Assembly (NCBI GenBank): GCA_012934845.2
Contig: WNNJ02000202.1
Coordinates: 1 to 64,000, forward strand
Reading direction: 5' to 3'
DNA: 64,000 nt
DNA from: Pomphorhynchus laevis
Lineage: Eukaryota; Acanthocephala; Palaeacanthocephala; Echinorhynchida; Pomphorhynchidae
Numbering within the stretch: position 1 is the stretch's first letter; every line of letters begins with the position of its first letter. Positions 3,201 to 44,705 of the stretch are shown piece by piece. The notes under the pieces were generated by a model. That model was not told where the DNA came from. It saw nothing but the letters and a program-made list of their open reading frames with translations, and made no database searches. The translations under genes were made by a program, and so were the position numbers.

Positions 3201-6200
3201 GAAATTCATTTGTTAGGTACATCTAATTCACAAATCTAAATCAACACTTGTTTATATTGAACTTAATATATAAAGTTCCTATATAAAGTTACTATAAAGA
3301 GTATCACTTTATAGTAATTTTATATTTATTTTATATATTACTTCCTATTATGCAAATTAAGACTTATTTTGAATTTATTATAATAATGGTATACGTACAA
3401 ATACTTAATATTTTAGATTAATCGTTTCAGATTTTTTGTCGTATCTTTTGTAATTGATTAAGCCCACAGAAACTACGACTTTATTAAATTTTTACATTTT
3501 TATTTTCTTTCATTTAAATATATGTTATATTTATTTGATTATTTAGACGGATAATTATAAATTTGATAGGCGAAGAAGATCAAATTTCATAAAACAAATT
3601 GGCAATCCATTATTTGCCTCTTGCATTTTAAAATGTGTAGTTCACGACATGTAAAATGAATAATGTTGATCATTTAGGAGGTATTGAGCAACGGTTATTT
3701 TGATATATGAACGATATTGTAATATTTCTAGTTATCTTTATGTATCTTCTCTCTACGCAGTTGATACCGTATCTCAATAACCGCTAATTTGACGAAAGCG
3801 CTTATTGGAATAATAACCGCTTATTACATATGCGGTTATCTATACATATGAGCCCAAATCTCAATAACTGCTCTTTGGAAGAAAGGAATAAAGACTTGTT
3901 TATTTATTGTTTCTGTTAATATGCACTGCTTAGTGGATTCATGATGAGGTGTGTTGATGTGATTAACTCGGAAATATTTTATAATTCCTCATGAATGGGA
4001 GAGTAGTTTGTATTTTTATCCTGTATGCCCCATTTATATTTTGTAAACAGAATTTATGCTGATAAATATATAACTGTATATCATTTTCAGTGTTTGTTAT
4101 TGAAACTTTCTGCTGTATTGAAAAATGTATTAAGTAATCAAGCAATTTTATGTCCAAAATCAGCAGCCACTAAACATAAATACAAAAAAAAACAATTAAA
4201 ATATATTTTAGAATTTAACTTTCTTGTAGTTGAAAATGTTAGCGTTTTAACTTAGTTTTCTTAATATTGATATTTAAATAATAATTGTATCAGTTTATTT
4301 CTTTAATTTCGCCTCATTAAAAAACCTGTTATGTTTTTAATGATAGTCAAATTTGACTCAAGATAACAATCTTTTTACTTTTATCCATTCGTACAAATAT
4401 CAAATACAAATAAATTATTTCAGGAGAAGATCGTGGTCCTGTTCTTGAAGTTATTGTTACTAGGGCAAATTTTATAGCTAACAAAACGAATAAATGCACC
4501 AGAGTTATTGGACTTAGCACTGCAATTGCCAACGCTGTAGATCTAGCAAATTGGTTGGGCATTAAGAAGGTAATTTGTGTTTTAGATGTTTTTTATTTGG
4601 CATTTTAGGTATTGGTGTTTTAGGTCGGCATGTACAATTTTAGACCTTCAGTTCGTCCTGTACCTCTTCAAGCACATATTTCTGGATTCCACGGTGAACA
4701 CTATTGTCCAAGAATGGCTTCGATGAATAAGCCTTGTTACCAAGGTAAATTTTTAAACTTTCGTTTATCAACATACTTTAATATTAAATATTTTATATTT
4801 TATATACTATTTTAAATATCTAATACTACGTTAAAATTAAAAATTTCTGATATATTTAATGTATCTAATATTCATATCTAATTGTAAAAGAAGATATTTA
4901 TATTAATATCTAATATTTATCAGATCAACTAACTAAGTCTACGAATTTTATATTATTTATAAATCAAAAATAATTATTAATAAAAATAAAATAATTAAAA
5001 AATATATTAAATAATTAATAATCACGTAAGAAACTTTTAAGAGAAAATATGCACAATGAAAGCAATTTTACAGACAAGTCCACTAAGTAGATAAGACCGA
5101 AAACAGAGAAATTTTATAATCCGTTAGAACATAAGGTGTTGATAGGATTTAATACATATGGTCAATGACACCACATATCTTGTGTTGGCCTTACCAATAA
5201 ACAGGTCGCTATAGTCCCCAGGTGGGCTTGACCAACGTGTTTGGCTTCAAATGAAGGCAAACACGTTTTATATGGTGTACTCATATATCACTATGTTTTT
5301 TAACATAGTGATGCCTGGTGTTTGGAGACAAACACCAGGCATCATTCTATATATTCTCATCAGACCAATTATTCCCGCAATATTCAAAGTCGCTACGTAT
5401 GCCCAGTTATCCTATGTGTGACGACAAACTTCAACAACGGTATACGCGTTTCGTTCTAACGGAGCTCATCAGTACCGTGACTTTTATATACATCCATATG
5501 CACCTTAACACACGCTTAAACAATGTTTAAAGCTCGAAAAACAGAACTACTCTTAATCTGAATCATCAGAGGAAATTTAGCATAAGCTCTGTGCATGACA
5601 GTGCGTATTGCGGTTTAACCATGCATCAGGCACTAAATTCTTTTTATTAGAAATGCTGTTTAACAGAAACACTTTAAAGTGTGCAAATATATAAAATATA
5701 ATTTGTTGTTACACCTCCCCTGGGACACACAATGGTGTACTCGTAAATAAATAACTATGTTTTCCTCAAAAAAAGGCATAAACACCATGCCGCATTCTAT
5801 ATATCCTCATTAGACCAAGAAATAGAAACAAATTATTCTCGTAATATTCAAAGTCGCTACGTATGCCCAGTCATCCTATCTGTGGCATAGGATGTTTATT
5901 CTTGTACACTTGAATGTGTCTCTGTACTCTTATTGGGTGTACTCGTTGTTTACGAGTACACCCAATGGTGTACTCGTAAATAAATCACTATGTTTTTCTC
6001 TTTAATACATTCAATAATCAAAAAAATACATTCATATTTGTGAATGGGGAAATACTTATAATAAGATACAATTGTGAATTAAAAAATACAAATGTTGTAA
6101 TTTTGTTAATTGGCTGCTTAAATTTAAGCGATAGATTATCGAGATTAACGTTTGAGATTTGGCTAAAGACAAGTGAGAGTGATAATTGAATGTTGAATAA

Positions 6201-21200: not shown

Positions 21201-24200
21201 GTTGAATCAAAAATATTATTATGTTCTGTAGTAAACTGAACGCATCATTAAAATCGATTGACATCATCAAAAAGTCGTTTGCAAAAATAAAAGAATGCCA
21301 CGATGTTTGTGTTCATTTTTTGAAAGAATGCTTAAATAATAGCTTATTAATAATATATTATTATATTTTGTATTTTATATAATTACTATTAATATTTCAA
21401 ATCAACAATATGTGAATTTTCATCTAAATTTAGAATCTAAAAAAATAGTAAAATTAAAAAAACGTTTTCCGAAGTAAAATAATCTAGTTTGTAGAATCTT
21501 TATTGATTTACTATTAATCTTTACCAAATTAATAGTTTTAATCTTCGTTAACTCACATTCAAAACTCCCATTTTGTTATAACGAAGGTGTACGCAATCAT
21601 TCAGTGATATGTAAATTATTTGTTATTTTCAATTTAAGGCTTGCATTTAACCCTTCATACCTATAATTGTCGATCGAATCAATTGATAACAATTCGATTT
21701 GACGTGTATATGACGTGTCACATATACACGTCATTTTGTGTATTGAATTTTGATCTCAAAATTTAATACATTTTTTGCTTATGCAAACAAAACTCTAATA
21801 AAATTAATCTTTCAACGTGCCTTTTTCTTAAAATAATTGGTTTTGATTTATTTTCTCTTTTTCAGCGTGCCTTACAAAGAAATCATGTGACATGTCGACC
21901 TCAATTGAATTGAAAATTAATATGAATTATGTTTTTGAAATAAGTGCTATTCGACTTAATCAGGTATTTTTGTTTCAATAAAATATGCTTTTATCATAAC
22001 GCAATTAGATTTTATTAATTTTATTAATTGTATTTTATTTTACAATAATATTAAAGTATGAGTTAGTGATATTAAATTATCAGCATTAATATTTAGCTTC
22101 TCAACATTAAAGTATACAAAAAGATTATTCAATTTGTTTTGTCAATGTGGATAGTCTTTAACGATAATTAAAAATTATCTTTATTAGTTTTGTCGTTGAT
22201 ATCAAAATATATTTCAAATATATTAGTTCAGGGGACTCAACCAATTCCGTTTTCATAGATTTTATATCACCATCGATAATCATCATTTATTATTAAAAAT
22301 AGTCATATTTGTTGTAAATTTAATGTTGTCGAATTTAAATTTGCAGCCTCCATGTATCAGACCATTTAGTATGCATATTTTCTTTGAAATGTCATCCTTA
22401 TAAATGTTCTCATAATTTTAGTAAATTTCACTGTAGCTGGGTAAACTCCTATTCAAAATTGTCGTCGTTCTGATCAAATAAAGAACGAAACAAAAAAATG
22501 AAAAAATTTTCCCAACTACCAAGAAGTTAATTATAAGATTATAATTAACTTCGATAATCATTAATTTATTATTGGCATACTTGTTGTAAATTTAATGTTG
22601 TCGAATTGATTACAATTGATTTGCTAAAGAAGCCTGCAAGAATTAGATGCCATCTTACATATTATATATACATCTTATATATAAGACGGCATATGCGAGT
22701 AAAAAATACTTAAAGAAGCCTGCAAGAATTAGATACCATCTTACATATTATATATACATCTTATATATAAGACGGCATATGCGAGTAAAAATACTTAAAG
22801 AAGCCTGCAAGAATTAGATACCATCTTACATATTATATATACATCTTATATATAAGACGGCATATGCGAGTAAAAATACTTAAAGGAGCCTGCAAGAATT
22901 AGATACCATCTTACATATTATATATACATCTTATATATAAGATGGCATATGCGAGTAAAAATACTTAAAGGAGCCTGCAAGAATTAGATATTATCTTACA
23001 TATTATATATACATCTTATATATAAGATGGCATATGCGAGTAAAAATACTTAAAGGAGCCTGCAAGAATTAGAAATTATCTTACATATTATATATACATC
23101 TTATATATAAGATGGCATATGCGAGTAAAAATACTTAAAGGAGCCTGCAAGAATTAGATACCATCTTACATATTATATATACATCTTATATATAAGATGG
23201 CATATGCGAGTAAAAATACTTAAAGAAGCCTGCAAGAATTAGATACCATCTTACATATTATATATACATCTTATATATAAGATGGCATATGCGAGTAAAA
23301 ATACTTAAAGGAGCCTGCAAGAATTAGATATTATCTTACATATTATATATACATCTTATATATAAGATGGCATATGCGAGTAAAAATACTTAAAGAAGCC
23401 TGCAAGAACTAGATACCATCTTACATATTATATATACATCTTATATATAAGATGGCATATGCGAGTAAAAATACTTAAAGAAGCCTGCAAGAATTAGATA
23501 CCATATTACATATTATATATACATCTTATATATAAGATGGCATATGCGAGTAAAAATACTCAAAGGAGCCTGCAAGAATTAGATATTATCTTACATATTA
23601 TATATACATCTTATATATAAGATGGCATATGCGAGTAAAAATACTTAAAGGAGCCTGCAAGAATTAGAAATTATCTTACATATTATATATACATCTTATA
23701 TATAAGATGGCATATGCGAGTAAAAATACTTAAAGAAGCCTGCAAGAATTAGATACCATCTTACATATTATATATACATCTTATATATAAGATGGCATAT
23801 GCGAGTAAAAATACTTAAAGAAGCCTGCAAGAATTAGATACCATCTTACATATTATATATACATCTTATATATAAGATGGCATATGCGAGTAAAAATACT
23901 TAAAGGAGCCTGCAAGAATTAGATATTATCTTACATATTATATATACATCTTATATATAAGATGGCATATGCGAGTAAAAATACTTAAAGAAGCCTGCAA
24001 GAATTAGATACCATCTTACATATTATATATACATCTTATATATAAGATGGCATATGCGAGTAAAAATACTTAAAGAAGCCTGCAAGAATTAGATACCATA
24101 TTACATATTATATATACATCTTATATATAAGACGGCATATGCGAGTAAAAATACTTAAAGGAGCCTGCAAGAATTAGATACCATCTTACATATTATATAT

Positions 24201-25604
24201 ACATCTTATATATAAGATGGCATATGCGAGTAAAAATACTTAAAGGAGCCTGCAAGAATTAGATATTATCTTACATATTATATATACATCTTATATATAA
24301 GATGGCATATGCGAGTAAAAATACTTAAAGGAGCCTGCAAGAATTAGATATTATCTTACATATTATATATACATCTTATATATAAGATGGCATATGCGAG
24401 TAAAAATACTTAAAGAAGCCTGCAAGAATTAGATACCATCTTACATATTATATATACATCTTATATATAAGACGGCATATGCGAGTAAAAATACTTAAAG
24501 GAGCCTGCAAGAATTAGATACCATCTTACATATTATATATACATCTTATATATAAGATGGCATATGCGAGTAAAAATATTTAAAGGAGCCTGCAAGAATT
24601 AGATATTATCTTACATATTATATATACATCTTATATATAAGATGGCATATGCGAGTAAAAATACTTAAAGAAGCCTGCAAGAATTAGATACCATCTTACA
24701 TATTATATATACATCTAATATATAAGATGGCATATGCGAGTAAAAAATACTTAAAGAAGCCTGCAAGAATTAGATACCATCTTACATATTATATATACAT
24801 CTTATATATAAGACGGCATATGCGAGTAAAAATACTTAAAGAAGCCTGCAAGAATTAGATACCATCTTACATATTATATATACATCTTATATATAAGATG
24901 GTATATGCGAGTAAAAATACTTAAAGGAGCCTGCAAGAATTAGATATTATCTTACATATTATATATACATCTTATATATAAGATGGCATATGCGAGTAAA
25001 AATACTTAAAGGAGCCTGCAAGAATTAGATATTATCTTACATATTATATATACATCTTATATATAAGATGGCATATGCGAGTAAAAATACTTAAAGAAGC
25101 CTGCAAGAATTAGATACCATCTTACATATTATATATACATCTTATATATAAGACGGCATATGCGAGTAAAAATACTTAAAGGAGCCTGCAAGAATTAGAT
25201 ACCGTCATATGCCATCATATAAGATGGCATATACGAGTAAAAATACTGAATACGAAACAAATTATTGTTTCATTTTCATTGTTACACATCATATTACTTT
25301 TGTGTCTTTTTTTATTTCAGTTGACTTCATTCTAAATTTATATTTCTTTTCATTAAAGCCGCCAGCTCACCAAACATTTAAGGGTGGATCTATGGATAAT
25401 TGGATATCTATTTTGGTATTAAATGATGAGCTTCTTGCCTTAAAACGTGTCAATGGTCCTAGAAGAAAGCAGAAAATTTCCACTCGTCTTTGTTTTAAAA
25501 TTAGTAACACATCGGAACGTGAATGTGATTTGCGCTTTTTCTGGTTTAACAGCAGAGTTATTGGACTAGATCAACAGTTTGAAGCAGCTATAAAAATAAA
25601 ATAA
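119..25604 (+). CDS. ASCC3: ASCC3-type helicase gene, 3' half, 18 exons (partial)
   Basis: This is the C-terminal part of activating signal cointegrator complex subunit 3, a Ski2-like superfamily 2 helicase. In animals it works in alkylation repair with ALKBH3 and in splitting collided ribosomes. Eighteen exons join with matching splice phases into 2376 nt, 791 codons plus TAA, with no internal stop. Visible in order: motif Ia ([11 protein letters not shown]), motif Ib ([13 protein letters not shown]), Walker B/DExH box as DEIH, motif III as [17 protein letters not shown] (IV), [14 protein letters not shown] (V), [12 protein letters not shown] (VI), then winged-helix, ratchet and Sec63-type regions ending in an immunoglobulin-like C-terminus ([12 protein letters not shown]). 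It is the second helicase cassette, since it runs on to the stop; Walker A and the first cassette lie upstream of the window. BRR2 is the nearest alternative, but the [10 protein letters not shown] and MASMNKP stretches favour ASCC3. Introns vary from about 43 bp to 4.4 kb, the large ones filled with repeats. Confidence 0.93.
485..535 (-). ncRNA. Hammerhead-like repeat, family B
   Basis: On the minus strand CTGAAGA lies at 526-520 and GAAA at 502-499. They are separated by a GCTA/TAGC stem II with a weak loop, followed by TATC, which gives AUC as a possible cleavage triplet. Stem I is poor, so this is probably a decayed copy of the family seen intact at 18847-18896. Confidence 0.5.
780..1440 (-). 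mobile_element. Penelope-like element fragment, 3' terminus plus RT remnants
   Basis: Plus-strand 780-960 matches, in reverse, the conserved tail shared with copies near 19.2, 35.2, 48.1 and 51.4 kb (CTGCTATG, CGAAACC, CATAGCAG). From 935 to 1400 the minus strand encodes decayed reverse transcriptase pieces such as YMFQYIDY, where the catalytic YIDD has become YIDY. An internal deletion removes the C-terminal part of the reading frame. Confidence 0.75.
1465..2300 (-). mobile_element. Penelope-like element fragment, RT C-terminal half
   Basis: The minus strand encodes the RT tail [19 protein letters not shown] and [12 protein letters not shown] (1471-1728), and the palm region [20 protein letters not shown] with the catalytic [10 protein letters not shown] (1883-2200). 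A ~50-bp stretch (about 1740-1795) is repeated at 1890-1945, so this copy has an internal duplication that breaks the frame. It is nested next to another copy of the same family. Confidence 0.8.
3050..3216 (+). CDS. ASCC3: ASCC3 exon b (DEIH box)
   Basis: Acceptor TTTTAG ends at 3049. Translation [24 protein letters not shown] and [10 protein letters not shown] carries motif Ib and the DExH box that binds Mg-ATP. It ends in phase 1 before GTACAT at 3217. Confidence 0.93.
3217..4423 (+). other. ASCC3 intron, AT-rich
   Basis: About 1.2 kb between exons b and c. It has short repeated phrases such as AATAACCGCT near 3780-3870 but no coding, RNA or element signature I can support. Confidence 0.5.
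4424..4569 (+). CDS. ASCC3: ASCC3 exon c (motif III)
   Basis: Acceptor TTTCAG ends at 4423. It reads [17 protein letters not shown] and then [20 protein letters not shown], the motif III region. It ends in phase 0 before GTAATT. Confidence 0.93.
4624..4744 (+). CDS. ASCC3: ASCC3 exon d
   Basis: Starts 54 bp after the previous exon. It reads [20 protein letters not shown] and [12 protein letters not shown], a stretch diagnostic for ASCC3 relatives. It ends in phase 1 before GTAAAT. Confidence 0.93.
5285..5960 (-). mobile_element. Family A hammerhead-bearing repeat, one copy plus a partial copy
   Basis: 5285-5720 shares long stretches with 36925-37260 (same orientation) and 37395-37812 (opposite orientation). 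Shared phrases include CAAAGTCGCTACGTATGCCC, ACACACGCTTAAACA and CATAAGCTCTGTGCATGACA. A shorter second copy follows at about 5735-5960. Two strong hairpins sit at the left edge: 5289-5310, and 5309-5342 with a 15-bp stem. It has no coding capacity and lies in an ASCC3 intron. Confidence 0.75.
5437..5478 (-). ncRNA. Hammerhead ribozyme-like motif, family A, near intact
   Basis: Minus strand, in order: ACGGTA (stem I), CTGATGA, GCTC-CGTTA-GAAC (stem II, one C-A mismatch), GAAA, the palindromic ACGCGT as minimal stem III ending GUA, then TACCGT, perfectly complementary to the first stem strand. Length is 42 nt, the same in all three copies. This fits a type I hammerhead with a short stem III that would work best as a dimer. 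Cleavage would follow the GUA. Confidence 0.75.
6735..6850 (-). ncRNA. Hammerhead-like repeat, family C (decayed)
   Basis: Minus strand CTGAAGA at 6773-6767 and GAAA at 6749-6746, followed by TATT. Stem II (GATGAC against TCTATC) keeps only its outer pairs. The flank GAATTACAAA and TTTACACTTTTGAATATGTA recurs near 7375-7440, so this is a dispersed repeat. Confidence 0.5.
6883..7025 (+). CDS. ASCC3: ASCC3 exon e (motif IV)
   Basis: Acceptor TTTAG ends at 6882. It reads [20 protein letters not shown] and then [13 protein letters not shown], the start of RecA domain 2. It ends in phase 0 before GTAATT. Confidence 0.93.
7026..8920 (+). other. ASCC3 intron with decayed family C repeats
   Basis: Copies of the family C repeat lie near 7345-7450 and 8485-8640, both with the core changed (CTAAAGA). 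Each is followed by AAATTACAAACAGTTTAT. The remainder is AT-rich with no gene seen. Confidence 0.5.
8921..9058 (+). CDS. ASCC3: ASCC3 exon f
   Basis: Acceptor ATTAAG ends at 8920. It encodes 46 codons including [20 protein letters not shown] and [11 protein letters not shown]. Phase 0 at both ends. Confidence 0.92.
9110..9230 (+). CDS. ASCC3: ASCC3 exon g (motif V)
   Basis: Starts after a 51-bp intron. It reads [20 protein letters not shown] then KGTEYFDGK and YVDFPIT. It ends in phase 1 before GTACGA at 9231. Confidence 0.93.
9273..9405 (+). CDS. ASCC3: ASCC3 exon h (motif VI)
   Basis: The AG at 9271-9272 is chosen over the AG at 9282-9283 because only it keeps frame and restores [15 protein letters not shown]. 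It carries the arginine-finger motif VI and [17 protein letters not shown]. It ends in phase 2. Confidence 0.9.
9933..10058 (+). CDS. ASCC3: ASCC3 exon i (winged helix)
   Basis: Acceptor TTTCAG ends at 9932. It reads [20 protein letters not shown] and then [15 protein letters not shown], the winged-helix region after RecA2. It ends in phase 2 before GTTAAT. Confidence 0.92.
10106..10217 (+). CDS. ASCC3: ASCC3 exon j
   Basis: Acceptor TTTAG ends at 10105. It reads [20 protein letters not shown] and continues to CVVIEE. It ends in phase 0 before GTAAGT. Confidence 0.9.
10349..11121. repeat. ~73-bp direct repeat within one ASCC3 intron
   Basis: The stretch at 10349-10421 (GATCTCAGTAAACATCTCGT and onward to GAGTTGCGTTTTT) is repeated almost exactly at 11049-11121, 700 bp downstream and just before exon k. 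It looks like a local duplication. Confidence 0.8.
11183..11317 (+). CDS. ASCC3: ASCC3 exon k
   Basis: Acceptor TTTAG ends at 11182. It reads [19 protein letters not shown] and [20 protein letters not shown], matching the ratchet-domain entry of ASCC3. Phase 0 at both ends. Confidence 0.9.
12940..13065. repeat. Inverted repeat around hammerhead-like core (family D)
   Basis: Arms of roughly 50 bp (plus-strand 12945-12990 and 13008-13060) are near-perfect reverse complements, joined by about 17 bp. The minus strand reads CTGAAGA (13007-13001), a short GAAA/TTTC stem and then GAAACGCGTT (from 12989), a hammerhead-like order. No stem I is seen. The second CGAAACGCGTTG on the plus strand lacks its own CTGANGA. 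Confidence 0.6.
13280..13530 (+). pseudogene. Penelope-like element RT fragment, second clade
   Basis: An open stretch at 13289-13525 encodes [20 protein letters not shown] and [20 protein letters not shown]. This resembles the region after the RT palm in endonuclease-bearing PLEs, where a variable strand, a conserved FLDV and a histidine-rich HP motif precede the thumb. Nothing else of the element is recognisable here, so it is a relic inside an ASCC3 intron. Confidence 0.6.
13750..14115. repeat. Long imperfect inverted repeat (fold-back)
   Basis: Outer arms starting CAATATAAGTTGATTATATT (about 13767) and ending with its reverse complement (about 14107) enclose TTACGCATGAATGATTCCAG and its complement. 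Inside, the phrase AATAAAAACCGGAATATG and its complement alternate several times. A related half copy lies at 13085-13235. There is no coding capacity; it forms a strong hairpin directly upstream of exon l. Confidence 0.75.
14231..14286 (+). CDS. ASCC3: ASCC3 exon l (56 bp)
   Basis: A very short exon between AG at 14229-14230 and GTAAGT at 14287. It reads [18 protein letters not shown] and ends in phase 2. Confidence 0.9.
14338..14509 (+). CDS. ASCC3: ASCC3 exon m
   Basis: Follows a 51-bp intron. It reads [29 protein letters not shown] and [10 protein letters not shown]. Phase 0 at the end, before GTATAA. Confidence 0.92.
14800..15545. repeat. Duplicated element with terminal inverted segment
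   Basis: Two related units run about 14850-15080 and 15235-15470. Both contain CACGACATTATC, a CATCAGC/CATCTGC segment, TTACCC-TTATTATCT and a TCAGTGGTGTAGA-type end. The plus-strand end GCGTTACATCCACTGGCTGA (about 15047) recurs as its complement at 15495-15530. A minus-strand fragment appears near 32925-32970. It may be a decayed ribozyme repeat, since the minus strand shows CTGATGA plus a CCC/GGG stem but no GAAA. Confidence 0.55.
16032..16186 (+). CDS. ASCC3: ASCC3 exon n
   Basis: Acceptor GATAG ends at 16031. It reads [20 protein letters not shown] then [17 protein letters not shown], the helical (ratchet) domain. It ends in phase 2 before GTAGGC. Confidence 0.9.
16255..16735. repeat. 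Short dispersed repeat pair with GAAACGTC relic
   Basis: AATTAAAAGTGT-ACTTGTACACTTATA occurs near 16285-16325 and again at 16687-16725. On the minus strand near 16485-16510 a GGT/ACC stem is followed by GAAACGTCG, the right half of a hammerhead-like core, but CTGANGA is absent. Probably a fossil of another ribozyme repeat. Confidence 0.4.
17233..17362 (+). CDS. ASCC3: ASCC3 exon o
   Basis: Acceptor TTCTAG ends at 17232. It reads [20 protein letters not shown] and continues with [11 protein letters not shown]. It ends in phase 0 before GTAAGG. Confidence 0.9.
17409..17499 (+). CDS. ASCC3: ASCC3 exon p
   Basis: Follows a 46-bp intron. It reads [20 protein letters not shown] and ends in phase 1 before GTACGG. 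Sequence is less conserved here; frame and phase support it. Confidence 0.82.
18195..18650. repeat. Degenerate ~20-bp minisatellite (two blocks)
   Basis: Variants of GTGCGCTCTCAGGCGGTTTC repeat about five times at 18195-18300 and about nine times at 18465-18650, separated by AT-rich DNA. The array is markedly more GC-rich than its surroundings. It lies in the 4.4-kb ASCC3 intron. Confidence 0.75.
18815..19050. mobile_element. Family B repeat with inverted ends
   Basis: TTATTGGAGCTGGATC at the left and GAAGCTCCAATAATT at about 18916-18932 form inverted ends around the 18847-18896 ribozyme. To the right, a plus-strand partial copy has CTGAAGA at 19008-19014 but GAAT instead of GAAA. It abuts CAGCTAACTGAGTCTACG, the sequence that ends several PLE tails in this window, so the PLE copy on its right may have inserted here. 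Confidence 0.55.
18847..18896 (-). ncRNA. Hammerhead ribozyme-like motif, family B, intact core
   Basis: Minus strand, in order: ATTAATTTT (stem I, 18896-18888), CTGAAGA (18887-18881), U, GCTAAC-AGAA-GTTAGC (perfect 6-bp stem II), GAAA (18863-18860), UAUC (one-pair stem III with AUC cleavage triplet), then AAAAATAAT, which pairs with the first strand with one mismatch. Every core residue of the hammerhead consensus is present. Downstream in the same RNA sense is GATCCAGCTCCAATAATT, the conserved flank of this repeat family. Confidence 0.75.
19080..20910 (-). mobile_element. Penelope-like element, rearranged 5'-truncated copy
   Basis: The 3' tail (about 19170-19380) is nearly identical to the tails at 35.15 and 48.1 kb. 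The minus strand then encodes the RT end [20 protein letters not shown] and [10 protein letters not shown] (19394-19651), a decayed palm region (20060-20370), and the finger region [20 protein letters not shown] (20412-20702). Insertions and stops break the frame. A perfect hairpin with TTCCCACTGAAAAT arms sits at its upstream edge near 20767-20800. Confidence 0.8.
21866..21963 (+). CDS. ASCC3: ASCC3 exon q
   Basis: Acceptor TTTTTCAG ends at 21865. It reads [20 protein letters not shown], a beta-strand pattern like the C-terminal immunoglobulin-like domain. It joins the previous exon across a 4.4-kb intron and ends in phase 0 before GTATTT. Confidence 0.85.
22626..25250. repeat. 85-bp tandem satellite array, about 31 units
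   Basis: About 30 full units plus one truncated unit, spaced 85 bp (86 where an extra A occurs). Each contains AGCCTGCAAGAATTAGA, a TATATA-rich middle and GGCATATGCGAGTAAAAATA. Units differ at a few diagnostic sites: AAAGA or AAAGG at the start, ACCATC, ATTATC or AATTATC after AGAT, and GACGG or GATGG near the end. CCATCTTA and TAAGATGG form an internal dyad in most units. The array fills most of the last ASCC3 intron, ending about 110 bp before the terminal exon. Confidence 0.97.
25359..25604 (+). CDS. ASCC3: ASCC3 terminal exon r
   Basis: Acceptor TTAAAG ends at 25358, just downstream of the 85-bp repeat array. It encodes 81 residues including [19 protein letters not shown] and [19 protein letters not shown], the expected C-terminus, then TAA. 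The reading frame is open upstream to 25209 but that part lacks homology and includes repeat sequence. Confidence 0.92.
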   Translation, partial: PPAHQTFKGGSMDNWISILVLNDELLALKRVNGPRRKQKISTRLCFKISNTSERECDLRFFWFNSRVIGLDQQFEAAIKIK

Positions 25605-25639: not shown

Positions 25640-26486
25640 GCCCATCGCTGCTATATATATCCTTTATTTATCATTAATATTATTTTGTAATAAAAGGGCT
25701 ATCTGGATAAATTTGTTCGCTTATTGAATAAAAATTATTAGAGTTAAATACACATATATCATCAATGTATCGAAACATATATTTTATATATTTATATTGT
25801 TTAGATTTAGTTTTTACACAGTTATGAACAAATTCATATTCTATAAAGCTTAAAAACAAGTCAGCTATAATTGGGCTACTATTACCTCCCATTGGAACAC
25901 CTTTTACTTGTCTAAATATAGATGTCCCTACTTTTAAATAATTTTGATTTATCAAAATATTTAAGGATTCTATTAATTCAATTTTATCCATATATTTATA
26001 TTTACTTGATGGTTTAATTTTTGTTAGATATGCGTTATAGTTATTATAACATATATATGTATATCTTTTTCCGAATATAAGATTAATTAATTTTACTAAC
26101 GCTTCTTTAATATCTTCTAAATCTAGATTTGTATAAAGCGTATTAAAATCGTACGTATTTATATTCTGAAAATTTATTATTTTTGTATGTTCTAAAATTT
26201 CTTTTGTAGAATTAATACTGAAATAGTGTTTTATACCAGTATTAATTTCGATTACCTTGCAATATTTTTTAAAATGTGCTTTAATTACTTTAAGTATTTT
26301 ATTCATATAGACAGAAAGTGGTTTTAATGTACATTGAATATTTAACAATATTTTTTGAAAATTAAAATTAATTATAATCTTGTTTACATTAAATAATGAA
26401 ATTTCAAGAATTACATTCTTGAAATTATTATGATATAATATATATAATATTATTATTATATTTTTATATTCAATAAGTGAGCACAT
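25640..26486 (-). mobile_element. Penelope-like element RT fragment with 268-codon open frame
   Basis: The longest uninterrupted PLE frame in the window (25680-26486). It encodes the RT fingers and palm: [40 protein letters not shown] and the catalytic [10 protein letters not shown]. The frame stops within the palm-thumb connection, and its 5' end meets an oppositely oriented copy at about 26470-26490. Reverse transcriptase of this type primes at exposed DNA ends or nicks. The fragment lacks any endonuclease. It lies about 75 bp beyond the ASCC3 stop, in opposite orientation. Confidence 0.88.
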
Positions 26487-34439: not shown

Positions 34440-35500
34440 GATTTATTTATCAAATAAATCGATAAATTTAAAAGTAGGGACATCTATATTTAGACAAGTA
34501 AAAGGTGTTCCAATGGGTGGTAATAGTAGCCCAATTATAGCTGACTTGTTTTTAAGCTTTATAGAATATGAATTTGTTCATAACTGTGTAAAAACTAAAT
34601 CTAAACAATATAAATATATGAAATATATGTTCCGATACATTGATGATATATGTGTCTTTCACTCTGATAATTTTTATTCTATTAGTGAGCACATTTATCC
34701 AGAAAGCCTTATTCTTAACAAAACCAATATTAATGATAAAGAATGTATATAAATTGATATGAACATTAAATTAAAATCAATTAAAACTACTATTAATTTA
34801 TATCGTAAAGATGACATATTTAAATTTACAAGGAACATATTTTTGCATGAAGATTCATGCATACCATATAATATAAAATATAATACATTAAATAATGAAA
34901 TTTTAAGAATTGCAACAATATGTAATGATATTGGCTTTCTTCAAAATCATTTAAATAATTTAATAGATACATATTTTAAACTAGGTTACTATAAAAATAA
35001 CCATCAAGCAGAAAATAGTAAAATATATAAATCAACACAATAATATAAAGAATAAATTTAAACTCTTAAGTGGCAAATTTTTATGGATGGATAATAAATA
35101 ATATACTTTGCATTAGAATAAGATACTAGATAGTTTTATCAGAGGAAATACATCATTAGCATGTATTTGGCCCCGCTGCTATGTTGGGTAGAGGAGTTAG
35201 GGGCCGAAACCTGATAGCATAGCAGTTCCTCCTGATGACCTCTAATTCTTATTCTGATACAACGTCTGTTATTTATTAGTCAATTCATAAAAATGACGTT
35301 TATTTTAAATTTCATTTTTTTAACTTGATTTAAATTATAGAAAATCTAAAAACAATTTTTAATTTTATTATTTAATTATTAAATTTTGATTTAGCATTAT
35401 TATGTTTTGTTTATTTTATAATTATATAACAATACGTAGACTCAGTTAGCTGATTTAATTATTTATTTTATAATTATATTAAATACGTAGACTCAGTTAG
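34440..35500 (+). mobile_element. Penelope-like element, best-preserved 3' half
   Basis: Reads RT palm [20 protein letters not shown] and [10 protein letters not shown] (34513 on), a TAA in place of a Tyr codon at about 34750, then DMNIKLKSIKTTINLY to the RT end (34759-35043, with a late frameshift). The untranslated tail follows, with GGCCCC, CTGCTATG, GGGGCC, GAAACC, CATAGCAG and CTGATGA between about 35168 and 35237. The element ends near two copies of CGTAGACTCAGTTAGCTGAT. No GIY-YIG endonuclease follows the RT. It is truncated at its 5' end within the RT. Confidence 0.88.
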
Positions 35501-36394: not shown

Positions 36395-36840
36395 ATTACA
36401 CTGCAACTTCTACACTGAAATTCTCTATATATAGAGAAAAGCAGATAGGTGTAATAGACAGTCCTGGTTGAATCAAACCTCTAATTTATTTATTGGTCCT
36501 GCGAGGATCCCAGGCGGCGGTGCTGTTTCCTTTGTAATATATTATATTCGTCATTTAGTGATCCCGCTGATATCTATTACACTGAAAAGAATTCACTGCA
36601 TTGCACTGACTTCGGAAGCGCAAGCTACGTCATGCAATTAGCATTTGGTGAATTCTTTCTGCTTTAATCTATATATAGTATGTTTTTCATGTGTATACAC
36701 TGTATTGCTGCAACTGATGAGGCTTCTCAAAGCCGAAACGGTACGCCGTCTTGCAGTGTAGAAGCATGAAATTCTCTATATATAGAGAAAAGCAGATAGG
36801 TGTAATAGACAGTCTTGGCAGAATCAAACCTTTAGTAATT
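36395..36840 (+). mobile_element. Retrozyme-like tandem repeat, ~351-bp unit
   Basis: The phrase GAAATTCTCTATATATAGAG, followed by AAAAGCAGATAGGTGTAATA and GACAGTC, occurs at 36417 and again at 36768, a spacing of 351 bp. The joint between the two copies contains a complete hammerhead (36708-36756). The unit has no coding capacity. A third partial copy is at 38734-38840. Non-coding, hammerhead-bounded tandem units of this size match what is known as retrozymes. Confidence 0.78.
36708..36756 (+). ncRNA. Hammerhead ribozyme, type I, all parts intact
   Basis: Stem I: CTGCAA (36708-36713) with TTGCAG (36751-36756), 6 perfect pairs. Core CTGATGA (36714-36720). Stem II: GGCTT-CTCA-AAGCC, 5 perfect pairs. 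GAAA (36735-36738). Stem III: ACGG-TACG-CCGT, 4 perfect pairs. Cleavage triplet GUC ending at 36750. Every conserved hammerhead residue is present and in canonical order, so RNA copied from the plus strand here is predicted to cut itself between 36750 and 36751. Extended pairing outside stem I is not needed. Confidence 0.92.
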
Positions 36841-36924
36841 CTGTATTGTTGAATCAATTTGATTACTTTTAAAGTTATACTTAAAAGTTATTACTTTTAA
36901 AGTTATCATTATGTTTTCCTCACA

Positions 36925-37260
36925 AGGAGAAATCACACAAGGCAGCATTCTATATATCTTCATCAGATCAAGAAATAGAACCGAATTATTCTCCCAATAT
37001 TCAAAGACGCTACGTATGCCCAGGCATCCTATGTGGGACGACAATATTCCACAACGGTAGACGCGCTTCGCTCTGATGGCGCTCATCAATACCGTGACTT
37101 CTATAATCATCTATAGACACCTTAACACACGCTTAAACAGTGTTTAAAGTTCGAAAAGCAGAACTACCCTTAATCTAAATCATCAAAGGAATTTGGCATA
37201 AGCTCTGTGCATGACAGTACGTATTGAAAATTAGCGACTTTGAATATTGCGAGTATAATG
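36925..37260 (-). mobile_element. Family A hammerhead-bearing repeat
   Basis: Same orientation and content as 5285-5720. The ribozyme-like motif at 37054-37095 (minus) has ACGGTA/TACCGT stem I intact but TTGATGA for CTGATGA and GAAG for GAAA, so it should be inactive. The cleavage triplet is GUC. Confidence 0.8.
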
Positions 37261-37394
37261 CAGTTATATTTCTTTGTCTGGTGAATAAATATTTAACGCT
37301 GCCTGGTGTTTATGCCTCTTTGTAGGGACAACAGTGATATATTTATAAATAGACTATTGGGTGTCCCAGGGCAGGTGTAACAACAAATTATATA

Positions 37395-37812
37395 TTATAT
37401 ATTTGTATACTTGAAAGTGTCCCTGTAAAACAGCAATTCTATGGTTAAACTACAATACACACTGCCATGCACAGAGCTTATGCTAAATTTCCTATGATGA
37501 TCAGATTAAGGGTAGTTCTGCTTTTCGAGCTTTGAACACTGTTTAAGCGTGTGTTAAGGTGCTTATAAATTATTATTGAAGCCACGGTACTGATGGGCTC
37601 CGTAAGAGAGAAACGCGTCTACCGTTGTTAAAGTTTGTCGTCACACATAGGATGACTGGGCATCCGTAGCGACTTTGAATATTGCGAGAATAATTCGGTT
37701 CTATATCTTAGTCTGATGAAGATATATAGAATGCTGCTAGGTGTTTATGCCTCCTTATGGGGAAAACATAATGATTTATTTATAAATACACCATTGGGTT
37801 GTCCCAGGGCAG
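37395..37812 (+). mobile_element. Family A hammerhead-bearing repeat, opposite orientation
   Basis: Reverse-complement relative of 36925-37260, so the two form a large inverted pair. The ribozyme-like motif at 37584-37625 has ACGGTA/TACCGT, CTGATGG (last A changed), stem II mostly kept, GAAA and GCGUC. It runs directly into the long palindrome at 37812. Confidence 0.8.
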
Positions 37813-38444
37813 ATGTAACATCAAATTATATATAATAGTATTGCATGGATGTGCTGAGTATACAACGGTCCAGGATTTCTTACGAAATACGGCATTTATA
37901 CTATATGGTGTTGCTTGATAGACTGGACTTCGATTCACGACTTTCAGTCACCATGTCACTTCTAGACGACCAATGAGTACCCGGCAACACTCATCAGTAG
38001 AATGAAGTACTCACTGGCCGTTTCGGTTGCCTGTGTGACATTGTGAATAAAGACGTTTATACCTGCCGTATCCATTAAGGATCCAACGAGTGCAGCGACA
38101 ATTCAGCAACATCATCGGCCTAGTGTTTAAGGATGGTCCGCACAGCAATTCGATCTGGTTAAGAGCGTAAGCCTCAGCCAATTAAGCAAAGTGTCGGAAA
38201 CGCCTTTATTCACAATGTCACACAGGCAACCGAAACGGCCAGTGAGTACTTCATTCTACTGATGAGTGTTGCCGAGTACTCATTGGTCGTCTAGAAGTGA
38301 CATGGTGACTGAAAGTCGTGAATCGAAGTCCAGTCTATCAAGCAACACCATATAGTATAAATGCCGTATTTCGTAAGAAATCCTGGACCGTTGTATACTC
38401 AGCACATCCATGCAATACTATTATATATAATTTGATGTTACATC
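37812..38444. repeat. Near-perfect long palindrome, 247-bp arms, 139-bp loop
   Basis: Positions sum to a constant 76256 along the whole arm, so there are no indels between 37812-38058 and 38198-38444. I found only two mismatches (38053/38203, and one in GAGTACCC versus GAGTACTC). The central 139 bp are not repeated. No reading frame fills it. The arms contain CCGAAACGG and CTGATGAGTG, but in the reverse of hammerhead order. Confidence 0.95.
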
Positions 38445-38733: not shown

Positions 38734-38845
38734 TTGCAGTGTAGAAACATGAAATTCTCTTTATTTAGAGGAGCAAATAGTAAAATAGACAGTCCTGGTT
38801 GAATCAAACATCTAATTTATTGGTCTTCTGAGGATTCCAATCAGC
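38734..38845 (+). mobile_element. Retrozyme-like unit, third partial copy
   Basis: Starts TTGCAGTGTAGAAACATGAA and matches the 36.4/36.75-kb units through GACAGTCCTGGTTGAATCAA and TTATTGGTC. Its left edge coincides with the base after the predicted cleavage site of the 36708-36756 ribozyme. The sequence to its left (TATATA) is unrelated. Confidence 0.75.
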
Positions 38846-39980
38846 GGATTAGTATATGAAACATTATGCATTAATTTTGATATTTTTAAGGCATTCTTAC
38901 TTCAACATCTTATTGGAACACTTTTTAAGGTACAAATAAATCACAAAATATGAAATATAATTAGCTGAGAATATTATCGAAAACAAAAATTTATAAAGGC
39001 CATTAAAATCGCGAAAAGGTCTATGGTCATAAAATTTCACCTGAGTCCACAGCAGTAACTCAGCGAGTATCCACAAAAGATACATGAATTGTAAAATAAT
39101 ATTCAAGTACTTACAAATGTGCTAAGTAAATTTTTTAAAACAAAATTTAATGACAGTAATTACGTTTTCAGCGTTCACTTCATTTTAATTATTATTCAAC
39201 TGGCTAAGTAAACTTAATTCAAAAACTGATTGGTTATTGCAATCCCCGAATACCAGATCATTTCATGAAGTGTATAATAACTTTTTAATAAAAATTCTAA
39301 AAGTAATTTAGTTGTCATTAATTTTGTAACTCAAAGCTTTCGACGTTTTAGCATTTGAAGTATTTAGCATTTGAAGAACATTACCGAGTTTAGTCAAGTG
39401 TAGATTAAATTAAGTATTAGTTTTTAAATAAATAAAAATTGAATTGTTATTAGCAATTCAAAAAAGATTGTTATTCTAGGGAAATAAGCTCTATTTAGCT
39501 AAAAACCTTTAGATAAAAGATCGTGTCAAATGTACACAGTCCTTGTTGTTTTATCTAAACAATCTTTACTTGTTGTTCTCTTAAGAAATTGGCATGAATA
39601 TTGTAATATTTTCAGAGAATATTATGGAAATACAACAATCTTAACAATACATATAGCATTTGTTTTAATATATTAAAACAAATGCTATAACTTGAATGTA
39701 GAACAATATGATAAACTATATAATTAAGATGAATGACACAATTGTGTCATTCAACTATATTAAAGTTGTCGAAGCTGCTAAAGAACATAAGCCAACTTTT
39801 ATAACAAATTCTATGAAACCCGTTTTGCCATCATTATGGTTAGGCAGACTGCAAACCAAAATAAAAAACGCAAAAACTAAAATTAAAAAATAAAAATATG
39901 AGCATAAATACTAAACCCATAATCTTCTTCCATTTCAAATATATAGTTATTATAGGAACGAAGAAGAAAATATCCTTTAT
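38846..39980. other. Intergenic, AT-rich
   Basis: An open frame at 39708-39893 (61 codons, lysine-rich end) has no recognisable motif or splice context. Nothing else is supported before the inverted repeat at 39985. Confidence 0.4.
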
Positions 39981-40362: not shown

Positions 40363-43300
40363 TCAGAAAACAATAATCCTACTTGCAACTGATCTTCGTT
40401 GGTTTCTATTTGGATGTAAATATTCAGGGGAATGTTTCAGATTTTGTACATCTCTGCTTACCATATTAAAATTATTTGCAACCAAGTGTGATGTTACAGG
40501 CAGCAAAGTTGATGAAAAGTTGCTAGCGTTTAAAAATGTTGATGATACAGGCATATATGTAGGCAACAAAGTTGAAAAATTGGTGGAATCATCCGAGGTG
40601 TTAATTGAATAATCTGATGAAGAAGACACATTGCTATCAAAATTAGAAGAGTAAACCGATCTGCTTGGTTCTTGGGATGAATATACAAGGTTTTGCGTTG
40701 CTGTTTGATCGCTAATAAGTGAAGACGATGAATATCCCTCAACATCTATTGATGAAGACGGATATCCATTGATCATTGGTGATATTGATTCTACGGCTTC
40801 AGTAGATATTTGTGATGGCATTCCATTTGTTTGAGCGACAGAATTCAATTGGATAGGTTCCTGTGATGCATATCCTGACCTTGTACTTGAAGATTGATCA
40901 CTACTAGAAAAATACGATTGATATCCATTATCCAGTGGTGATACCGATTGTCCTTCTTCAGTGAATATTTGAGATGAACTTGTATGTGATGACATCGATT
41001 GTCCGGTTTCAGTAGCTAATTGTGATGACGTTATAATTGTCTGAGAAGAAACAGATGGATCAAAACCACTTGATTCTTGTGGTGAAAATACGTCTTTTAC
41101 AGTTGATTGATCGCTTTGTATTGTGGATTCGTAATTGTCCGTTTTATAAATGGAAGGATTTTCAATTTTTTCTTTTATGGAGGATGGCACCATCTCAGTA
41201 GAAAAATGTGTTGTTTGATTATTTTTGTTAATTTTTATAAAAACAGCGTCAGTTGGTTCTACATGAAAAACATCAAATGTTTCAGTGGTTGGCATATCTG
41301 AACTAGCTTTCGTTGAGGAAAAATAATCGCTGACTAATCCTGGAGACGTCAAAGTTTTAAATAGTGTAAATGACATTCCTGACGTCTGTTGAAAAGTATT
41401 TTGCTCAGAAGTAAGAGGCTCCGATATTCTAATGCCTTGCGTTGCAGATTGATTAATGCCTTCCGTTGCAGATTGCCTGGCATCGGTAGATTCATGTGAT
41501 GACAGCTCAGTTGTTCCTAAATCAAAAGTATGAACGGATCCTTTTGGTTCATGAGACGAATAGACGGAGCTTTGAGTTGTGGATTGATCGGCACTGATTG
41601 AGGAAGATGAATATTCATGAGCAGTTGGTGATACTGATTGCCCAGCACTATTAGCTTTATGTGATGACAGATCAGTTGTCTCAAAATCAGAAGTATGAAC
41701 CGACCCGGTGTGTTCTTGGGATGAATATCCAGAGCTTTGCATTGTAGATTGATCGCTGGCAGTTGACGACGATGGATATACACTGACAGTTGGTGATACT
41801 GATTGCCTGGCATCAGTAGATTCATGTGATGACAGCTCAGTTGTCACTAAATCAGAAGTATGAATTAATCCTCTTGGTTCCTGCGACGAATATACGGGGC
41901 TTTGCATTGTGGATTGATCAGTATCGATTGAAGAAGATGAATATGCATAAGCAGTTGGCGGTACTGATTGTCCAGCATCAGTTGCTTTATGTGATGACAA
42001 ATCAGTTGTCTCAAAATCAGAAGTGTGAACCAATCCTCTTGGTTCTTGCGACGAATATACAGAGCTTTGCATTGTGGATTGATCGCTGGCAGTTGACGAC
42101 GATGGATATACACTGACAGCGAGTGATACTGATTGCCTGGCATCGGTAGATTCATGTGATGACAGCTCAGTTGTCTCTAAATCAGAAGTATGAACCGATC
42201 CTTTTGGTTCCTGAGACGAATAGACGAAGCTTTGACTTGTGGATTGATCGGCACCGATTGAAGAAGATGAATATTCATGAGATGTTGGTGATACTGATTG
42301 TCCAGCATCAGTAGCTTTATGTGATGACAGATCACTTGTCTCAAAATCAGAAGTATGAACCAATCCTCTTGGTTCTTGCGACGAATATACGGGGCTTTGC
42401 ATTGTGGATTGATCAGTATCGATTGAAGAAGATAAATATTCATGAGCAGTTGGCGGTACTGATTGTCCAGCATCAGTTGCTTTATGTGATGACAAATCAG
42501 TTGTCTCAAAATCAGAAGTGTGAACCGACCCGGTTTGTTCATGGGATGAATATCCATAGCTTTGCATTGTAGATTGATCGCTGGCAGTTGACGACGATGG
42601 ATATACACTGACAGTTAGTGATACTGATTGCCTGGCATCAGTAGATTCATGTGATGACAGCTCAGTTGTCCCTAAATCAGAAGTATGAACCAATCCTCTT
42701 GGTTCCTGCGACGAATAGACGGAGCTTTGACTTGTGGATTGATCGGCACCGATTGAAGAAGATAAATATTCATGAGATGTTGGTGATACTGATAATACAG
42801 CATCAGTAGCTTTATGTGATGACAGATCACTTGTCTCAAAATCAGAAGTGTGAACCAATCCTCTTGGTTCTTGCGACGAATATACGGAGCTTTGCATTGT
42901 GGATTGATCGCTGGCAGTTGACGACGATGGATATACACTGACAGCGAGTGATACTGATTGCCTGACATCGGTAGATTCATGTGATGACAGCTCAGTTGTC
43001 CCTAAATCAGAAGTATGAACCGATCCTTTTGGTTCCTGAGACGAATAGACGGAGCTTTGACTTGTGGATTGATCGGCACCGATTGAAGAAGATGAATATT
43101 CATGAGATGTTGGTGATACTGATTGTCCAGCATCAGTAGCTATATGTGATGACAGATCACTTGTCTCAAAATCAGAAGTATGAACCAATCCTCTTGGTTC
43201 CTGCGACGAATATACGGGGCTTTGCATTGTGGATTGATCAGTATCGATTGAAGAAGATAAATATTCATGAGCAGTTGGCGGTACTGATTGTCCAGCATCA

Positions 43301-44705
43301 GTTGCTTTATGTGATGACAGATCAGTTGTCTCAAAATCAGAAGTGTGAACCGACCCGGTTTGTTCTTGAGATGAATATTCAGAGCTTTGCATTGTAGATT
43401 GATCGCTGGCAGTTGACGACGATGGATATACACTGACAGCTAGTGATACTGATTGCCTGGCATCAGTAGATTCATGTGATGACAGCTCAGTTGTCCCTAA
43501 ATCAGAAGTATGAACCAATCCTCTTGGTTCCTGCGACGAATATACGGGGCTTTGCATTGTGGATTGATCAGTATCGATTGAAGAAGATAAATATTCATGA
43601 GCAGTTGGCGGTACTGATTGTCCAGCATCAGTTGCTTTATGTGATGACAAATCAGTTGTCTCAAAATCAGAAGTGTGAACCAACCCGGTTTGTTCTTGGG
43701 ATGAATATCCAGAGCTTTGCATTGTGGATTGATCGCTGACAGTTGACGACGATGGATATAGTGATACTGATTGACTGGCATCAGTAGATTCATGTGATGA
43801 CAGCTCAGTTGTCCCTAAATCAGAAGTATGAACCAATCCTCTTGGTTCCTGCGACGAATATACGGAGCTTGGACTTGTGAATTGTTCAGCACCGATTGAT
43901 GAAGATGAATATTCATGAGATGTTGGCGGTACTGATTGTCCAGCATCAGTAGCTTTATGTGATGACAGATCAGTTGTCTCAAAATCAGAAATGTGAGCTG
44001 ACCCGGTTTGTTCTTGGGATGAATATCCAGAGCTTTGCATTGTGGATTGATCGCTGGCAGTTGACGACGATGGATAAACACTGACAGTTGATGATACTAA
44101 TTGTCCAGCATCAGTAGATATATTTGAGGAAAGTTTAGTGGTTTGAAAATCAGATGTGTGAACTGATGTGTTGGGTTCCTGGATTGAATATACAGTTCTT
44201 CGCATTCTTAATTGATTTGTATCGGGTGAAGATGAATATTCATGAGATCTAAACGATACTGATTGTTCAATATCTGTAGAAATATGTGACGACAGTCCAG
44301 TTGTCTGTAAATTAGAAGTAGGAACCAATCTGCTGGGTATCTGTGTTGAATATACAGGGATTTGTATTGTGGTTTGATTGTTTGCAAACGTATACGATGG
44401 ATATTCATTGTCGTTTGATGATAGTGTTTGTATAGCATCCGTAGGTATATGTAATGACGATCCACTTGAATGTGAAACTGACCACTGAGCTGAACTGTTT
44501 GAATATTGAGTAGAATATTCAGAACTAAATGTCAAATGTTCTTTACTGCTTTGAATTGTATGTTGTTTGAGACCGCTCGGAACTGTTTCCGAAGTTGCCT
44601 GGATATCATCGGGAATCGCCGTTTTATTATTGTCTTGACTAAATGATGACGGAGCACCACTTTGTAAATTCGTTAAATTTTCACTTTCCTTGTTGATTAT
44701 TTGAT
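40363..44705 (-). CDS. Mucin-like Ser/Thr-rich repeat protein, large 3' exon
   Basis: A single exon of about 1446 codons. An acceptor AG at 44707-44706 precedes it, and the frame is open from there to the stop; the first in-frame ATG is not the likely start. The protein is built of about 17 repeats of 55 residues, of two main types that alternate: HTSDLGTTELSSHESTDA and HTSDFETTDLSSHKATDA. The superunit is therefore 110 residues, 330 bp. Each repeat carries a Ser cluster and YSSQEP. Ser, Thr, Gln and Pro dominate, and almost no Cys, as expected of an O-glycosylated extracellular mucin or cuticle/gut lining protein. The C-terminus (LHPNRNQRRSVASRIIVF) is basic. No domain identifies it, and the signal peptide must lie in an exon I did not find. 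Confidence 0.8.
41450..44160 (-). repeat. 165-bp / 330-bp coding tandem repeat
   Basis: DNA of the mucin-like exon repeats every 165 bp in two alternating subtypes, 330 bp together; for example GATGACAGATCAGTTGTC at 41663 and its relative at 41993. Similarity between same-type units is higher than between neighbours, so the 330-bp pair is the unit that has been duplicated. Two F-type units sit side by side in places, marking unequal exchange. Confidence 0.9.

Follow-up and report, generated by a model that had tools for sequence, protein, structure and literature searches.

A type I hammerhead ribozyme in a 351-nt candidate retrozyme with fixed 3' ends suggestive of Penelope-like machinery, and a neighbouring type-GCS hammerhead family

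The hammerhead ribozyme at 36708–36756 of the window (the whole stretch of DNA analysed here, 64,000 nucleotides) is intact and of type I, and it probably belongs to a non-autonomous animal retrozyme with a unit of 351 nt that is moved by a Penelope-like reverse transcriptase, a reading to which we assign a probability of about 0.7. Judged from its sequence, the repeat unit, termed family 1, belongs to a known kind of element, the animal retrozyme, and both self-cleavage and a circular RNA are predicted for it.

Results

The hammerhead at 36708–36756

A preliminary description of this DNA had claimed a complete type I core, perfect stems of 6, 5 and 4 bp, and a predicted cut between 36750 and 36751, and direct reading of the sequence bore out all of these points. 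Stem I is formed by CTGCAA (36708–36713) and TTGCAG (36751–36756), stem II by GGCTT and AAGCC around a CTCA loop, and stem III by ACGG and CCGT around a TACG loop, while the core consists of CTGATGA (36714–36720), GAAA (36735–36738), and the cleavage-site triplet GTC (36748–36750). A chance origin had also been called improbable, and this view was supported by the finding that a type I core with perfect stems occurs at one site in the window and at none in 40 dinucleotide-preserving shuffles.

The covariance-model check proposed in the same description gave a score below threshold, the outcome that the description itself had named as refuting. In a permissive search of 3 kb, the best Rfam match at this site was Hammerhead_HH9 with 28.7 bits (E = 2.2e-4) against a gathering score of 52, and no Rfam family matched at its gathering score in the whole window. 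Less weight was placed on the sub-gathering score, because the genome-wide family described below is stronger evidence for the hammerhead. In addition, when the 69 nt around the site were folded, the structure of lowest energy was not that of a hammerhead, and it was only slightly better than those of shuffled sequences (z = −1.6; 15 of 200 as good).

Family 1 is a dispersed 351-nt unit with a conserved ribozyme core

The hammerhead had been placed at the junction of a 351-bp direct repeat. The spacing proved correct, whereas the tandem is partial, with a second unit of just 84 nt (Table 1). Family 1 has at least 135 DNA matches, mostly 92–98% identical, in the genome of the window (249 Mb, 3242 contigs), a count that is a lower bound, as 39 of 468 candidates were scored. 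Arrays were mapped with one real 351-nt monomer on 38 fetched regions and 8 kb of the window; they contain about 1 to 10 units each, and some contigs are possible duplicate assemblies, L061 and L063 having one junction in common. With its 351 bp, family 1 lies within the dispersed tandem repeats of 150–450 bp by which retrozymes are recognised. The retrozyme-type reading of the preliminary description was supported by a dispersed multi-copy family, a self-paired monomer, and a hammerhead core that is intact in 82 of 89 full monomers.

The monomer of locus L036 folds with −120.4 kcal/mol (z = −7.9), a value reached by none of 100 shuffles. GC content is 38.2% in the monomer and 39.1% in the window unit, the flanks of the arrays are AT-rich, so that target site duplications, which in retrozymes exceed 4 bp when present, would be ambiguous there, and no open reading frame of 110 aa or more was found in 36416–36834. 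The mean minor-allele frequency was 0.0048 in the hammerhead core versus 0.0206 in the unit (permutation p = 0.033); taken as a whole, the 43-nt hammerhead stretch varied as much as other segments of the unit (rank 0.35). Moreover, units diverge by 2.1% within an array versus 3.5% across arrays, and none of 1000 label permutations gave so low a value.

Table 1. Coordinates of the hammerhead-bearing repeats and of the Penelope-like fragment in the window.
Feature	Position	Strand	Remarks
Type I (CGS) hammerhead	36708..36756	+	Predicted cut 36750/36751; basis: sequence, sub-gathering Rfam HH9 match, 0 of 40 shuffles
Family 1, first unit (unit positions 17–351)	36416..36750	+	97% identical to a 351-nt monomer of another array; direct-repeat spacing 351; terminates at the predicted cut
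Family 1, partial second unit (positions 1–84)	36751..36834	+	Stops inside the first 3' end zone
Family 1, diverged fragment (81%, positions 1–121)	38734..38847	+	Starts exactly at the predicted cut point
Family 2 copy (unit of ~463 nt)	36892..37218	−	Degenerate minimal hammerhead
Family 2 copy, inverted relative to 36892..37218	37232..37842	+	Minimal hammerhead with CTGATGG, one core residue changed
Family 2 copy	5330..5884	−	Minimal hammerhead core intact; palindromic ACGCGT replaces stem III
Family 3 copy, type-GCS hammerhead	37831..38058	−	Predicted cut 37965/37964; arms 99% complementary; row 2 of alignment A1
Family 3 copy, type-GCS hammerhead (family match 38057–38425)	38198..38425	+	Predicted cut 38291/38292; basis: sequence, alignment A1, pair counts
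Reverse transcriptase fragment, Penelope-like (our label), candidate helper family	25680..26486	−	RVT_1, 26.7 bits against a cut-off of 29.6, E = 5e-6

Most 3' ends of the arrays fall in two zones

Counted from the predicted cut, 24 of 52 family 1 3' ends lie at unit positions 80–98 and 19 at 128–150, leaving 9 outside both zones; the 5' ends in these zones numbered 0 and 3 of 51, respectively. Array ends at contig ends were left out of these counts, as were matches below 83% or shorter than 28 nt outside the window, and alignment breaks account for some of the seven 5' ends assigned to position 1, of which two, at L059 and at window position 38734, look clean by eye. Both 3' end zones are AU-rich, and (AT)n often comes directly after them. 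Alternating AT runs of at least 10 were seen after 26 of 52 3' ends (L031–L068) and before 2 of 50 5' ends; as they sit mainly on the 3' side, these runs may be a product of insertion rather than a part of the target. Furthermore, neighbouring family 1 blocks are arranged head-to-head, with their 5' ends meeting, in 10 of 14 pairs. Fixed 3' ends in combination with scattered 5' ends are the signature of target-primed reverse transcription from a start within the RNA.

Ends were also collected for families 2 and 3, whose loci (all those of family 3 and most of family 2) were sampled because they lie near family 1. In family 3a, 17 of 20 3' ends fall at two places, 71–74 nt (8) and 134 nt (9) after the predicted cut of that family. 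Six of these 3' ends directly adjoin family 1 and may mark the places where family 1 entered; without them the counts are 4 and 8, together 12 of 14, two of these 14 ends being the window copies, which are themselves one inverted duplication. In family 3b, the 3' end lies at position 126 in 4 of 7 rows. The 3' ends of family 2 are looser (n = 17), with 3 at 117–127, 7 at 159–175, 3 at 218–221, and four elsewhere.

Penelope-like elements in the genome

The reverse transcriptase fragment at 25680–26486 has 143 scored genome matches, most of them 92–95% identical, with open frames of up to 908 aa; another copy of this family lies at L069 1348–4062 (minus strand). The label Penelope-like stands here for a reverse transcriptase with a GIY-YIG domain and was assigned in this analysis, no database match being so named. 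A Pfam search of the 904-aa open reading frame itself returned no domain, while two relatives carry GIY-YIG near the N-terminus, a layout that we take to be of the 'Naiad' type. This abundant family need not be the helper of family 1, because its 3' ends (matches of at least 80 nt) are mostly without an AT run; the genome also contains another, canonical Penelope-like element.

At L061 and L063, which have one common junction, the 5' side of a family 1 array is fused to a Penelope-like fragment in which a C-terminal GIY-YIG motif was recognised by eye. A continuation of this fragment beyond the array was looked for and not found, and the junction is as a template switch would leave it. From the resemblance of the two-zone 3' ends to the internal start sites of the Anolis element PAc, we infer that the helper of family 1 would be a Penelope-like reverse transcriptase.

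Downstream of the Penelope-like open reading frame, 35121–35270 (plus strand) and its copies carry hammerhead-like blocks in the order cut site, GAAA, CUGATGA (SGC-like). This candidate type-SGC hammerhead was kept as a lead only, as its stem II has two unpaired bases and breaks in variants (six copies and some diverged ones).

Two further hammerhead-bearing families adjoin family 1

In the window, family 1 has two more families with hammerheads as its neighbours, and the hammerhead of one of these is of type GCS. Both had been overlooked in the preliminary description, as had the fixed 3' ends of family 1.

The tandem unit of family 2 measures about 463 nt, and at least 45 genome matches to it were obtained from the 40 scored of 1985 candidates. 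It is retrozyme-like, occurs also at L070 and L071, and by prediction would be cut after GUA.

In family 3, the blocks follow the order GAAA, CUGANGA, cut site, which is type GCS. In the copy at 38198–38425, helix P0 is formed by 38215–38221 and 38297–38303, stem II by 38225–38230 and 38268–38273, and stem I by 38254–38258 and 38292–38296, with GAAA at 38232–38235, CTGATGA at 38259–38265, and GTC at 38289–38291. The two window copies represent one inverted duplication (arms 37812–38058 and 38198–38444), because at either side the inverted repeat continues past the limits of the family for about 19 nt. Tandem units measure 361–380 nt at the two loci measured. The GCS core pattern has 4142 matches in the genome, of which the first listed places were inspected, versus none for a reversed control pattern.

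The predicted GCS structure was evaluated in an alignment (A1) of 32 of 35 distinct GCS stretches; the other three, next to joins, were left out (L039 twice, L058 once). The structure is pseudoknotted and comprises helices P0, II, III, the III-extension, and I. Standard pairs occupy 96.6% of 766 cells, compared with 25.6–48.0% when the partners are slid by 1–3 columns, a control that favours the structure, which was written from the A1 sequences themselves. Of the 24 pairs, 7 had changes on both sides (3 of 500 shuffles had as many), and each of the five helices contained one or more such pairs. The both-side-change cells numbered 46, against a shuffle mean of 14.2, and the covariation score was 0.191 versus 0.092, neither value being reached in 500 shuffles; each such cell stands for a sequence rather than for an event, and most of the changes set a few subfamilies apart from one another. 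One of five covariation measures, the number of further pair types, was not raised (13 versus a shuffle mean of 13.9), and 9 of 32 copies do not form pair 49–107, which closes off stem I. In addition, the stem sequences of L136, L150, L151 and L152 are altered and still paired, L136 being without P0 and L150 having one stem I mismatch.

In a separate pairing test with 50 copies (43 distinct), the III-extension paired over 7.9 bp on average, compared with 5.2 when the partners were swapped between copies; the extension was not a selection criterion in this test, and at least one row (L147) was misparsed. Stems I–III paired over 4.5, 5.7 and 3.9 bp with their own partners versus 4.1, 5.2 and 3.7 with swapped ones, values that are biased upward, as copies were kept when these stems paired. 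Folding alone gave a long hairpin for the two family 3 sequences folded.

A GCS-like core was also met in viral contigs (67 matches in 64 stretches, 9 with a possible stem II partner), which were judged by eye to be chance occurrences in phage sequence and were discarded. A stricter pattern, based on the stem II of one subfamily, gave no match in viral contigs and none in bacterial and archaeal genomes.

Other features of the window

A single open frame at 58196–60226 (minus strand) encodes SSRP1, which is about 40% identical to its best listed relatives (molluscs, fishes, and other animals); because of this low identity, the host is taken to be a poorly sampled or fast-evolving animal. A satellite of 85 bp, with about 30 copies matching at 97%, occupies 22625–25203. 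A Ser/Thr-rich open frame of 1390 aa lies over a 165-bp repeat at 40363–44535 (minus strand); its Pfam match to the Shedu N-terminus was rejected as, in our view, an artefact of composition. The open frame at 63511–63945 (minus strand) resembles a LINE reverse transcriptase fragment by eye and had no Pfam match.

Discussion

How family 1 may move

We propose that transcripts of tandem family 1 units would cut themselves at 36750/36751 and at the equivalent sites, and that the monomer RNA so released would be closed into a circle. A Penelope-like reverse transcriptase would then start inside this RNA at an AU-rich zone, about 80–98 or 128–150 nt after the cut, with nicked TA-rich target DNA serving as the primer, and would proceed one or more times round the circle, stopping anywhere. 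Insertions made in this way would be tandem arrays whose 3' ends are fixed while their 5' ends are scattered, and some of them would lie head-to-head in pairs.

Both the tandem layout and the similarity of units within an array would equally fit ordinary satellite DNA spread by unequal crossing-over, in which the hammerhead would be a functionless passenger. We consider such an origin highly improbable, since family 1 is dispersed over the 38 fetched regions as well as the window, its 3' ends keep to two fixed zones while its 5' ends are scattered, AT runs sit mainly on the 3' side, and the hammerhead core varies less than the unit. A retrozyme might also be moved by a LINE or by some other reverse transcriptase, its 3' ends being set where TA-rich target DNA pairs with AU-rich spots in the RNA. 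Base pairing of this kind could place the 3' ends whatever the enzyme; in favour of it, (AT)n often comes after the two AU-rich zones, the 3' ends of family 2 lie at several AU-rich places, and PMC7229834 leaves both LINEs and PLEs open. However, the unrelated family 3a also shows two zones at similar distances from its cut, the published main start of PAc lies 85–92 nt after its cut (by arithmetic from PMC11167929), and one array is joined directly to Penelope-like sequence, with no continuation of that sequence found beyond the array. Movement by a LINE or another enzyme is therefore judged unlikely. Because both 3' end zones lie at fixed distances from the cut, a single in vitro assay could directly test which enzyme moves animal retrozymes.

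How the family 3 hammerhead may work

Helix P0 connects the outer ends of stems I and II, and the CUGANGA strand sits in the apical loop of stem III and its extension. By simple lengths, this strand should not be able to reach its own site once the extension has formed. Either the extension opens and the ribozyme folds in cis, or the CUGANGA strand is exchanged between two units; we speculate on the latter because stem III, whose apical loop contains the strand, is long and covaries. In a tandem family 3 RNA, the CUGANGA strand of one unit would combine with the other two blocks of the next unit into an ordinary nested hammerhead.

The GCS order might instead mark a decayed or rearranged hammerhead that is inactive, with pairing that reflects a few inherited subfamilies. 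The long hairpin obtained by folding alone for two sequences is in line with such decay, as are the seeming steric impossibility of a cis fold with the stem III extension formed (an argument from reasoning), the one covariation measure of five that was not raised, and the small number of independent events. Set against this are the 4142 core matches compared with none for the reversed pattern, the both-side changes that occur in each of the five helices and in 46 cells against a shuffle mean of 14.2, and the further variants with altered but paired stems, so that loss of activity appears rather doubtful. We lean, with some reserve, towards a working type-GCS hammerhead that would act by a strand swap between units, such that tandem or paired RNAs alone are cut, the monomer circle stays closed, and one Penelope-like machine serves this family and family 1.

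If true, one Penelope-like machine would move the circles of families 1 and 3 with their different ribozyme architectures, and a hammerhead formed solely between two units would explain how a self-cutting circle stays closed. Moreover, covariation together with cleavage in a GCS family would settle the biological reality of the sixth hammerhead order, and the genome offers thousands of natural variants.

Comparison with known systems

Animal non-LTR retrozymes are described as dispersed tandem copies of a 170–400-nt unit with a type I hammerhead, and Cervera and de la Pena considered LINEs and PLEs as possible helpers, with a preference for PLEs (PMC7229834). Family 1 has in common with them the type I hammerhead, a unit of 170–400 nt in dispersed tandems, a GC content below 50%, a non-coding and self-paired monomer, and Penelope-like elements in the genome; it differs in having its own sequence and in its defined 3' end zones. 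In the accessible part of PMC7229834, end zones are not described, and the word 'microsatellite' is absent from its main text.

Frangieh and colleagues reported that Anolis PAc starts reverse transcription at two adjacent internal sites, with the main start 111–118 nt into the ORF and the hammerhead cut at +26, which by our arithmetic places this start 85–92 nt after the cut (PMC11167929). PAc prefers AT-rich DNA, extends both strands, and inserts in vitro without need of its hammerhead (PMC11167929). Like PAc, family 1 has a hammerhead followed by two putative internal start zones (deduced from the 3' ends alone) at a similar distance; AT-rich targets and extension of both strands would be further points in common. 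In contrast, PAc encodes its own enzyme while family 1 encodes nothing, and PAc begins within a stem-loop that is AC-rich and has no homology to its target (PMC11167929), whereas the family 1 zones are AU-rich.

The minimal stem III of family 2 and its palindrome resemble the dimer-acting hammerheads of salamander satellites (PMC7229834) and the minimal hammerheads of PLEs (PMC7761336), from which family 2 differs in its unit of about 463 nt and its predicted cut after GUA.

Type GCS is the last of the six hammerhead block orders. It was named by Eckert and colleagues on one sequence, GCS-1 of Caballeronia peredens, which cuts in vitro, is without covariation, and is described as of unclear significance (PMC10085705). 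The block order of family 3 (G, C, S) is that of GCS-1, and its helix P0 matches the helix described for other permuted hammerheads (PMC10085705). Whereas GCS-1 is known from one bacterial sequence, family 3 is an animal repeat in high copy number that covaries, has a long stem III extension, and has predicted cleavage. Beyond PMC10085705, no report of a GCS hammerhead family was found in the literature searched, which excluded most subscription papers and bioRxiv preprints. The stronger novelty of the present analysis, beyond membership among the retrozymes, lies in the two-zone 3' ends, which suggest Penelope-like machinery, and in the covarying type-GCS family.
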